Positions 55,186 to 58,460 of a stretch of 64,000 nt of DNA are shown here, piece by piece. The DNA is taken from positions 62,001 to 126,000 of the forward strand of contig CACILL010000001.1 of NCBI GenBank assembly GCA_902587545.1. The letters are read 5' to 3'. The position numbers and the translations under genes are program-made. A model generated the notes under the pieces. That model saw only the letters and a program-made list of their open reading frames with translations, was not told the DNA's origin and did no database searches. Positions within the stretch are counted from its first letter, which is position 1. Each line of letters opens with the position of its first letter. This DNA comes from an uncultured SAR86 cluster bacterium. Its GTDB lineage: Bacteria > Pseudomonadota > Gammaproteobacteria > Magnimaribacterales > AG-339-G14.

Positions 55186-55461
55186 TTACAAAGACTCTCT
55201 GAGTTTTTTTGATGCTTTAAAGGAAACAACATTTCTATCTTTAATATTATATGGCTCACCCGTTTTTGGATTTCTTCCAGGTCTACTTTTTTTATGCTTA
55301 ACAATAAAATTTCCAAGTTTAGGAATTTTTATTTCTTCTCCTCTTTCTAATCCTTTACTGATTTCTTCAAAATAAGCATTTACTATTTTCAAGCAATCTT
55401 TTTTCGGAAGACCTAATTGCTCCCTCAATAAATTAACAATATTTGCTTTGGTTAAAGTCAT
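55186..55461 (-). CDS. ihfA: Integration host factor subunit alpha
   Basis: A 91-aa HU/IHF protein that bends DNA as a heterodimer with IhfB. LTKANIVNLLREQLGLPKKDCLKIVNAYFEEISKGLERGEEIKIPKLGNFIVKHKKSRPGRNPKTGEPYNIKDRNVVSFKASKKLRESL follows IhfA nearly throughout, including the GRNPKTGE turn whose Pro intercalates DNA. The E. coli subunit has 99 aa; a few C-terminal residues are missing. In the pheT-ihfA order usual in this group, and one base from pheT. Confidence 0.94.
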   Translation of the reverse strand: MTLTKANIVNLLREQLGLPKKDCLKIVNAYFEEISKGLERGEEIKIPKLGNFIVKHKKSRPGRNPKTGEPYNIKDRNVVSFKASKKLRESL

Positions 55462-57480
55462 TTATCTTAAAATTGCTCCAAGTTTTTTTTGCATCCCAGT
55501 AATAATAAGATTAGCTTCTTTATTAATCTCTTCTTCAGATAAAGTTTTTTTATTTGAGCCCCAAGAAACTCTAAAGGCAATACTTTTTTTACCATCAGAG
55601 ATATTTTTGCCATCGTAAACATCAAAAATTTTTATGTCTATTAAAAAATCTTTTGATGAAATATGAATACAATTTTCTATTTGTTCATAAGAAACTTTAT
55701 TGTCTATTTCAAAAGAAAAGTCTCTTTGAGATATAGGATAAATTGAAGGTGCATTTAATTTTCCGAGATCATTTTTTGGTAGAGATTCAACCTTTATTTC
55801 AAAATAAAAGAAAGATTTATTAAATCCAAGTAATCTTAAAAACCTTGGATTGATGCTTCCTACAGAGCCAATGAGCTTATTTTTAAAAAATATATCTGCA
55901 GAAGCATAAGGATGTAATAAATGATTTTTAGATTTTTTCCAGAATATTTTCTCTATTCTGAATTCTTCAAAGAGATTTTCCAAGATTCCTTTCAAATAGT
56001 AAAAGTCATAATTTTGGTTAGTATTCCAATTTTTAAACTTTTCATCATCAAAAATTAACCCAGCAAGATTTAAGCCTTCCATATCTTTATCATTTGAGAA
56101 GGATTTACCCATCTCGAAGATTTTTAAGAAATTTTGGCCCCTATTGATATTAAATTCTAGATTTGTTGCTAGGCTAGGTAATAAAGAAGTTCTCAAGGTA
56201 CCTAAGGAATTATTAAGTGGATTTTTTAAAGAAATGCTTTTGTGATCTATGCCTAAATTTTCTAAAGACTGTTTTTCAAGAAAAGAATAGTTTATTACTT
56301 CATAGAATCCTTTGTTTATCATAAAAGTTTTGATCTGACTTATAAAATCGTAGTCTGATTTTTCATAATATTGAGTTATTGGATCGTTTTTAATTTGAGG
56401 TAAATTGTCATAACCAACTATTCTTGCAACCTCTTCAATTAAATCCTCTTTAATTGACAGATCAAAGCGATGACTAGGAGCTTCGAAAGTTAAGTTTTTC
56501 TTATTTTTTTTGATCAGTTTAATTTCAAGCCTCTTTAAAATAGATTTGATTGTATTTTCTTTAAGATCGGTGCCAAGTTTCAGGTTTACGTCATCTAGAG
56601 AAATATCTATGATTTTTTTCTTGGGAAAATACTTATTTCTTGTTGTTTCAATATTAGAAATATCTGCCTGATAAATTTCTTGAATAATTGAGAGTGCCTC
56701 CTTCAAAGCATCCTCATGGAGATTAAAATCAACGCCTCTTTCAAATCTTTGGGAAGCATCTGTTTGAAACCCATATCTTCTTGCTTTGCCTTTGATAATA
56801 GCAGGATCAAAAAAAGCAGATTCGATCAAAAAATTTTTAGTTTTTTTAGAAACTGAATGATTTAGGCCTCCTGAAATTCCCGCTAAAGCTATAGGTTCTT
56901 TTTTATCAGCAATAACAAGACAATCTTTGGAAAGCTTAAGATTCTTTTCTCCTAAAATTTTTATTTGTTCTTTTGTTTTTGCAAATCTAACTTCGATATC
57001 TCCTTTAATTTTATCTTGATCAAAGACATGCATTGGCTGGCCACTTTCTATCATGACAAAATTAACAATATCTACTAGGGGGTGGATGGATTGGATCCCA
57101 GCCGCCTTTAAAGCATTTTTTATATAATCTGGAAACTTCTTTTTTAATTTTAAATTTGATATAGAAATGGCTGAATAAGCTGGACATGCATCTCTTGCTA
57201 ATAGTTTAATTTTTTTATTAAATTTTGTTTCTCCTTTAAAAAAATTTTTTGTAACTAAAGAAAATTTCTTATTTTTATATGCACAATAGTCTCTTGCCAA
57301 ACCTTTTACAGAAAAACAATCTCCCCTATTTGGAGTTAAATCGAAATCAATTATCTTATCTCCTTGAAAAGACTGTATCTCATCAACTTCTATTCCGATT
57401 AATGTAAGATCCTCACAGAGGTTTTCAATCTTAGGTTTAGAATTGATAGCCTTAGTAATTCTAGAGAATAAAACTTTCAT
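55462..57480 (-). CDS. pheT: Phenylalanine-tRNA ligase beta subunit lacking the N-terminal OB-fold domain
   Basis: Beta subunit of the alpha2beta2 enzyme that charges tRNA-Phe. It has 672 aa against 795 in E. coli. After the first helix pair (NLCEDLTLIGIEVDEIQSFQGD) the text jumps to KIIDFDLTPNRGDCFSVKGLARD, so the EMAP-II/OB-fold domain (about residues 40-150 in E. coli) is missing. The B3/B4 editing region, B5 and B7 core and the C-terminal FDX-ACB anticodon-binding domain (APSIYPISQRDFSFEID... QKKLGAILR) are present. The frame is intact, so this is a real shortened protein, unless the window lost bases. Follows pheS by 2 bases. Confidence 0.93.
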   Translation of the reverse strand: MKVLFSRITKAINSKPKIENLCEDLTLIGIEVDEIQSFQGDKIIDFDLTPNRGDCFSVKGLARDYCAYKNKKFSLVTKNFFKGETKFNKKIKLLARDACPAYSAISISNLKLKKKFPDYIKNALKAAGIQSIHPLVDIVNFVMIESGQPMHVFDQDKIKGDIEVRFAKTKEQIKILGEKNLKLSKDCLVIADKKEPIALAGISGGLNHSVSKKTKNFLIESAFFDPAIIKGKARRYGFQTDASQRFERGVDFNLHEDALKEALSIIQEIYQADISNIETTRNKYFPKKKIIDISLDDVNLKLGTDLKENTIKSILKRLEIKLIKKNKKNLTFEAPSHRFDLSIKEDLIEEVARIVGYDNLPQIKNDPITQYYEKSDYDFISQIKTFMINKGFYEVINYSFLEKQSLENLGIDHKSISLKNPLNNSLGTLRTSLLPSLATNLEFNINRGQNFLKIFEMGKSFSNDKDMEGLNLAGLIFDDEKFKNWNTNQNYDFYYLKGILENLFEEFRIEKIFWKKSKNHLLHPYASADIFFKNKLIGSVGSINPRFLRLLGFNKSFFYFEIKVESLPKNDLGKLNAPSIYPISQRDFSFEIDNKVSYEQIENCIHISSKDFLIDIKIFDVYDGKNISDGKKSIAFRVSWGSNKKTLSEEEINKEANLIITGMQKKLGAILR

Positions 57481-57482
57481 TG

Positions 57483-58460
57483 TTATTGAGATAGAAATTT
57501 TATGTCGTTTGAAAATAGAGAGCGCATATCTTCTATTTCATAAGAAAGCTTAGCCATTCTTTCGATCCCCATTCCAAAAGCAAAGCCAGAAAATTTATTA
57601 GAATTCAATCCTGCCATATCTATTACGTTAGGATGTACTAAACCGCAGCCCATGATTTCTAGCCAATTTTTGGACTTATTATCCATAATATCTACTTCAG
57701 CAGAAGGTTCTGTGAATGGAAAATAAGAAGGTCTAAACCTAACTTTGGTATCTGGCCCAAAAAAGAAATCTATGAAGGTCATAATTTCATTTTTAAGATG
57801 ACCAAAATTAACATTTTCGTCAATAACCAGACCTTCTATCTGATGAAACATAGGCGTATGAGTTTTGTCTGCATCACTTCTATACACTTTTCCAGGACAA
57901 ATAATTTTTAAGGGTGCGCCTCTTTTTTCAATTGATCTTATTTGAACAGGGGAAGTATGTGTTCTTAAAAGATTTCCATTATCAAGATAAAAGGTATCAT
58001 GCATATCTCTAGCAGGATGATCTTTAGGAATATTCAAAGCATCAAAATTATAATAATCGCTTTCAATCTCAGGTCCGTCTTCAATCAAGTATCCCTTTGA
58101 AGAAAAGAAATCTGTTATCTTTTTGGTGGTTAAAGTCAAGGGATGAAGCTTCCCTTGAGATTTAAAAGAACCTGGAAGGGTAACGTCGATTCTATCTTTT
58201 TCAAGGGATTCATTGATAACTTGTAATTCAATCTTTTCTTGAATGGAACTTAAAAGGTCTTCATAAAGACTTCTTAACTCACTAATTTTTTTTCCAAAAG
58301 TTGGTCTTTCCTTTGACGGTAGGTTTTTAATATTTTTTGAAAGTTCAGTAATCTGCCCTTTTTTTCCAAGATACTTAACTTTGAGTTGATTCAACTCTTC
58401 TTGCGAGACTATTTCTTCAAAATCTTTTTTAAGATTTGCTTTTAAAGCATCTAAATCCAT
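57483..58460 (-). CDS. pheS: Phenylalanine-tRNA ligase alpha subunit
   Basis: The catalytic subunit, 325 aa (327 in E. coli). It has the N-terminal coiled-coil arm (LKKDFEEIVSQEELNQLKVKYLGKKGQITELSKNIKNLP), class II motif 2 (IKIICPGKVYRSDADKTHTPMFHQIEGLVID) and motif 3 (FSGFAFGMGIERMAKLSYEIEDMR). Forms a functional enzyme with PheT. Separated by 6 bases from rplT upstream, typical of the thrS-infC-rpmI-rplT-pheST operon. Confidence 0.97.
   Translation of the reverse strand: MDLDALKANLKKDFEEIVSQEELNQLKVKYLGKKGQITELSKNIKNLPSKERPTFGKKISELRSLYEDLLSSIQEKIELQVINESLEKDRIDVTLPGSFKSQGKLHPLTLTTKKITDFFSSKGYLIEDGPEIESDYYNFDALNIPKDHPARDMHDTFYLDNGNLLRTHTSPVQIRSIEKRGAPLKIICPGKVYRSDADKTHTPMFHQIEGLVIDENVNFGHLKNEIMTFIDFFFGPDTKVRFRPSYFPFTEPSAEVDIMDNKSKNWLEIMGCGLVHPNVIDMAGLNSNKFSGFAFGMGIERMAKLSYEIEDMRSLFSNDIKFLSQ

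Follow-up and report, generated by a model that had tools for sequence, protein, structure and literature searches.

The pheT gene of the window (the whole stretch of 64,000 nucleotides analysed here) encodes a beta subunit of phenylalanine--tRNA ligase that has no B2 (EMAP/OB) domain. With a probability of about 0.88, we consider this protein to be the normal, single and functional beta subunit of its lineage, whose tRNA-binding OB domain B2 would have disappeared in one or a few events early in the evolution of the order. The gene, the domains of its product and the adjoining genes are located as follows.

55462..57480, minus strand: pheT, phenylalanine--tRNA ligase beta subunit, without B2 (EMAP/OB); ATG start, 672 aa
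57367..57480, minus strand: domain B1, first part, residues 1-38 (alignment with E. coli; strand 32-38 in the model)
57355..57378, minus strand: junction at the absent B2, residues 35-42, a short turn joining two B1 strands (alignment and model)
57223..57366, minus strand: domain B1, second part, residues 39-86, with the LTPNRGDC motif inside (alignment)
56674..57189, minus strand: B3/4 editing domain, residues 98-269 (Pfam PF03483, B3_4, 1.1e-58)
56410..56610, minus strand: B5 domain, residues 291-357 (Pfam PF03484)
55792..56367, minus strand: catalytic-like module (CLM, tRNA_synthFbeta), residues 372-563 (Pfam PF17759)
55465..55746, minus strand: FDX-ACB anticodon-binding domain, residues 579-672 (Pfam PF03147)
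57483..58460, minus strand: pheS, alpha subunit, 325 aa (Pfam matches to its N-terminal and to its core domain)
55186..55461, minus strand: ihfA-like gene directly after pheT (named from its position and from the sequence read by eye)

Domain B2 is absent from PheT of the window

The open reading frame list gives no internal stop codons in pheT. The Pfam search of the product did not find tRNA_bind (PF01588), yielded a weak, sub-threshold match for B1, and placed B3/4, B5, CLM and FDX-ACB in the canonical order. Against the NCBIfam model TIGR00472 (pheT_bact) the protein scores 584 bits, above the curated cut-off of 402.65, and the match begins at profile position 158 of 798. In the alignment with E. 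coli PheT, residues 1-39 of the latter correspond to 38 residues of the window protein, residues 40-151 (112 residues, B2) have no counterparts, residues 152-200 correspond to 48 residues, and the later domains have normal residue counts.

Both in the alignment and in the structural model the halves of B1 meet directly, with no OB domain in between, the first part including the strand that leads into B2 in E. coli PheT. In PheT that has it, B2 is inserted between two B1 strands, and B1 of the window protein is intact, not cut; hence, an in-frame removal of B2 is possible that leaves the rest of PheT undisturbed. These observations bear out the reading of the earlier note, namely, a 672-aa PheT with a whole-domain, in-frame absence of EMAP/OB (Pfam, TIGR00472 and the E. 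coli alignment). Its estimate of about 110 missing residues is close to the exact unmatched E. coli span of 112, the direct passage it described from about residue 40 to the LTPNRGDC motif agrees with the aligned B1 halves (residues 1-38 and 39-86), and the frame is, as it stated, intact, with all later domains including FDX-ACB present (open reading frame scan and Pfam).

The AlphaFold2 model of the beta subunit alone has a mean pLDDT of 87 and a modest pTM of 0.57. In this model strands 32-38 and 41-46 are joined at the junction (mean pLDDT 82-91), and B1 is closed. The model aligns over its full length with the E. coli and Acinetobacter PheT (Z 46-47); for E. coli PheT 3pco_B, 669 residues are aligned with Z 45.9 and a global rmsd of 14, this large value being due to domain placement.

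The alignment columns corresponding to the editing residues Gly318, Glu334, Thr354 and Ala356 of E. coli are kept in the window protein, as is the GQPMH motif. We infer that the enzyme without B2 is capable of both charging and editing. The remaining PheT would still dimerise with PheS, in the (alpha-beta)2 form of bacterial PheRS, the charging of tRNA-Phe would run through the catalytic module and the FDX-ACB domain, and the editing of Tyr-tRNA-Phe would take place in B3/4, the expected cost of the loss being weaker tRNA capture and editing.

The EMAP domain of the genome is encoded beside metG

The search of the whole genome for PF01588 revealed a single copy, outside PheT, in a 110-aa open reading frame that overlaps metG.

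L001:1462-1794 (own genome G000:C2, about 7.9-8.2 kb): free EMAP protein and the end of metG; overlap GTGGATGA; relatives ATGGATGA

MetRS is thus split in this genome: metG ends in TGA, and the free EMAP/Trbp111-like protein starts 8 nt upstream of that stop codon. The protein (PF01588 match of 96 bits) derives from MetRS rather than PheT and lies outside the pheT locus.

We then considered 101 genomes of the order, including the window's own, in 84 of which PheT was matched. Nearly all genomes having any PF01588 match have one copy (two in G068 and G095), and the positions of the matches never coincide with PheT, no PheT gene in the 101 genomes having PF01588 inside. The 8-nt overlap with metG recurs in almost every genome sampled from family f1; in f2 and f4 the free EMAP copies are close to metG or slightly overlap it, while f3 retains the fusion of the domain to MetRS. 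The second copies are weaker PF01588 proteins (about 115 aa, 44-46 bits) found in two f3 genomes, at L125 (G068:C1:752674-752961) and at G095:C4:102413-102700, and they are possibly CsaA-like.

In f1, f2 and f4 the sole PF01588 domain is the free protein of 110-118 aa adjoining metG, as would be expected if B2 had been relocated, not lost, and the free protein served PheRS in trans. The fact that PheT-B2 and MetRS-EMAP are seldom both absent from small genomes of the class points in the same direction. On the other hand, the adjacency to metG and the fusion to MetG in f3 mark the free protein as an appendage of MetRS and not as B2 of PheT. Moreover, f3 and the majority of the remaining B2-less genomes continue to carry EMAP as part of MetG, so a free release is not required. 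Such a relocation is therefore unlikely, and we retain the loss of B2 as the preferred explanation.

EMAP domains of PheRS and MetRS in small genomes

Among 107 genomes of at most 2.4 Mb, both EMAP domains are present in 32, only that of PheT in 33, only that of MetRS or a free one in 41, and neither in 1; that is, the MetRS domain is absent in 34 genomes, the PheRS domain in 42, and both in 1. Outside the order, the MetRS copy is kept in nearly all genomes whose PheT has no B2, and about half of small genomes with PheT-B2 have no MetRS copy. The likelihood test for dependent loss on the PheT tree yielded p = 0.005 when the window was the sole representative of the order, p = 0.009 with the order removed, and p = 0.065 with the order and three long-branch rows removed; the phylogenetic independent pairs on supported branches, 3-4 in number, are few. 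These tests rely on a single-gene tree and on absences coming partly from draft genomes, and it was these data that prompted the idea.

The correlation, moderate and post hoc, suggests that one copy must stay. A tentative explanation, which we regard as possible but doubtful, is that the OB domains of PheRS and MetRS are interchangeable at the cellular level in small genomes of Gammaproteobacteria, so that either can be lost but one of them must stay for a shared tRNA service, which may be, for instance, to capture tRNA 3' ends or to protect them. The window's lineage may then be further along the same way, its sole EMAP being a free protein coupled to metG. The more useful result of this analysis is thus a side observation, the apparent reciprocity of domain loss in the two EMAP-bearing synthetases; if true, it would suggest a shared cellular role of EMAP beyond each single enzyme.

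Gene neighbourhood and origin of pheT

In the window pheS adjoins pheT, the pheS-pheT-ihfA order is that of E. coli, and the ThrRS gene is complete. The full window order, thrS-infC-rpmI-rplT-pheS-pheT-ihfA, is one which we take, partly from general knowledge, to be the E. coli order as well.

Instead of being trimmed in place, pheT could be a paralogue or could have been gained horizontally from a lineage without B2 (CPR, archaea), as B2 is also absent from CPR and archaeal-type PheT and the PheT tree is poorly resolved. Yet pheT is single-copy, the genome search having found no second PheT match in the window's own genome; its best structural-sequence matches are to gammaproteobacterial PheT; TIGR00472, the bacterial model, gives 584 bits and the archaeal one 113; and the gene order is retained. 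Hence, this alternative is very improbable, and trimming in place is the origin that we favour.

PheT without B2 is shared by the whole order

Every intact PheT of the order (84 of 101 genomes with a match; contig-end fragments and one frame-broken copy, in G003, were left out) spans 628-699 aa of open frame, and none approaches 795. Full-length PheT in related strains, which the earlier note had named as the contrary outcome, was thus looked for and not seen among the intact copies of the order. A common site joins the two parts of B1 in the aligned PheT of all four families, with a linker varying by a few residues from family to family, and the junction is gap-free in the aligned proteins of the same genus; so, the shared junction proposed as a check proved to be a lineage trait. 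Compared with nine genes of the same genus, pheT has dN/dS of about 0.08-0.14 (dN 0.06-0.20, dS 0.50-2.5, the first 60 codons included), and the gene is under purifying selection.

The chance that the absence of B2 is a deletion or chimera of assembly or sequencing in this contig is negligible, although the window's genome is a draft (11 contigs, 85% complete), as the junction recurs without gaps in independently assembled genomes of the same genus, B2-less PheT is found in all four families, and dN/dS is near 0.1. Together with this ratio, the PheT of the relatives rules out both an artefactual deletion and gene decay.

Several copies in the order deviate in other respects. PheT is shorter still (633-646 aa) in L060 and L065-L073 (part of f3, and f4), where the catalytic-like module has 177-189 residues versus 203-211; f4 also gives a weak FDX-ACB match. 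In G003, of the same genus as the window, pheT (G003:C1:757599-759610) is split into several frames with stops, probably because of indel errors in the assembly.

Loss of B2 in the class and genome size

In most family representatives of the class outside the order PheT has about 790-840 aa, and nearly all of 150 genomes sampled from the phylum have long PheT frames. In a separate contig scan, almost all of the 80 PheT loci listed are full-length, the two short ones lying at contig ends. PheT sequences without B2 were observed in families f18, f38, f40, f73, f78, f95, f102, f132, f139, f160 and f166, the genomes of these families all being 2.0 Mb or less. Thus, the loss is not special to the window's lineage, B2 being absent from some 11 further families of the class. 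In the alignment, the joints outside the order fall within a few residues of the window's junction site, in keeping with B2 being inserted between two B1 strands.

The PheT of G272 has a 795-aa frame and yet no B2. In G341 (L117) a low-complexity Asn/Asp/Glu linker replaces B2 in an otherwise complete PheT of 756 aa. Frame length is thus an imperfect proxy for B2, and the counts of loss based on it are lower bounds. On the PheT tree, built with the B2 columns left out, parsimony requires at least 6 changes of the B2 state, only two being forced by supported branches. The tree fails to unite the sequences of the order, probably due to long branches, so that the losses inside the order may number one or a few.

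In 158 family-level representatives of the class, genomes of at most 2.0 Mb account for 10 of 10 cases without B2 and 33 of 148 with B2 (Fisher p about 1e-6, with kinship ignored and the family counts coming from a sample). This test was scored before G272 (1.7 Mb) was counted as B2-less; with G272 the former group comprises 11, and the result is not weakened. Within a single bacterial class this essential synthetase has repeatedly shed B2, in each case in a small genome.

Streamlining, suggested in the earlier note, is a plausible cause, and this part of the suggestion agrees with the absence of B2 tracking small genomes in the class. At the same time, several genomes of 0.3-1.1 Mb retain full-length PheT, hence size pressure alone is no explanation. 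The loss may have been favoured by small-genome evolution.

Comparison with known systems

The window protein shares with bacterial PheT (TIGR00472; E. coli 3pco_B) the gene order, the domain order B1-B3/4-B5-CLM-FDX-ACB and the editing motifs; the difference is that E. coli 3pco_B has B2 (residues 40-151). B2 is a feature of most bacterial PheT and not required for membership, many accepted PheT having none. In a limited literature search we found no report of B2-less PheT in this order, no publication treating SAR86 with PheRS, and none on loss of the EMAP domain.

B2 is missing in many PheT of CPR bacteria, for example, OGE14653.1 (PMC5370408). The CPR proteins, known here by that description, resemble the window protein in having no B2 but belong to a different phylum. 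According to Roy and Ibba (2006), as cited in PMC5370408, B2 is dispensable but contributes to editing. Going by these accounts, which report dispensability in vitro and absence from many CPR bacteria, the loss is not functionally surprising, and both the loss of B2 and its tolerability are already known kinds of fact. The E. coli PheRS with B2 removed, as that citation presents it, is engineered; the window PheT is a natural, order-wide counterpart to this deletion.
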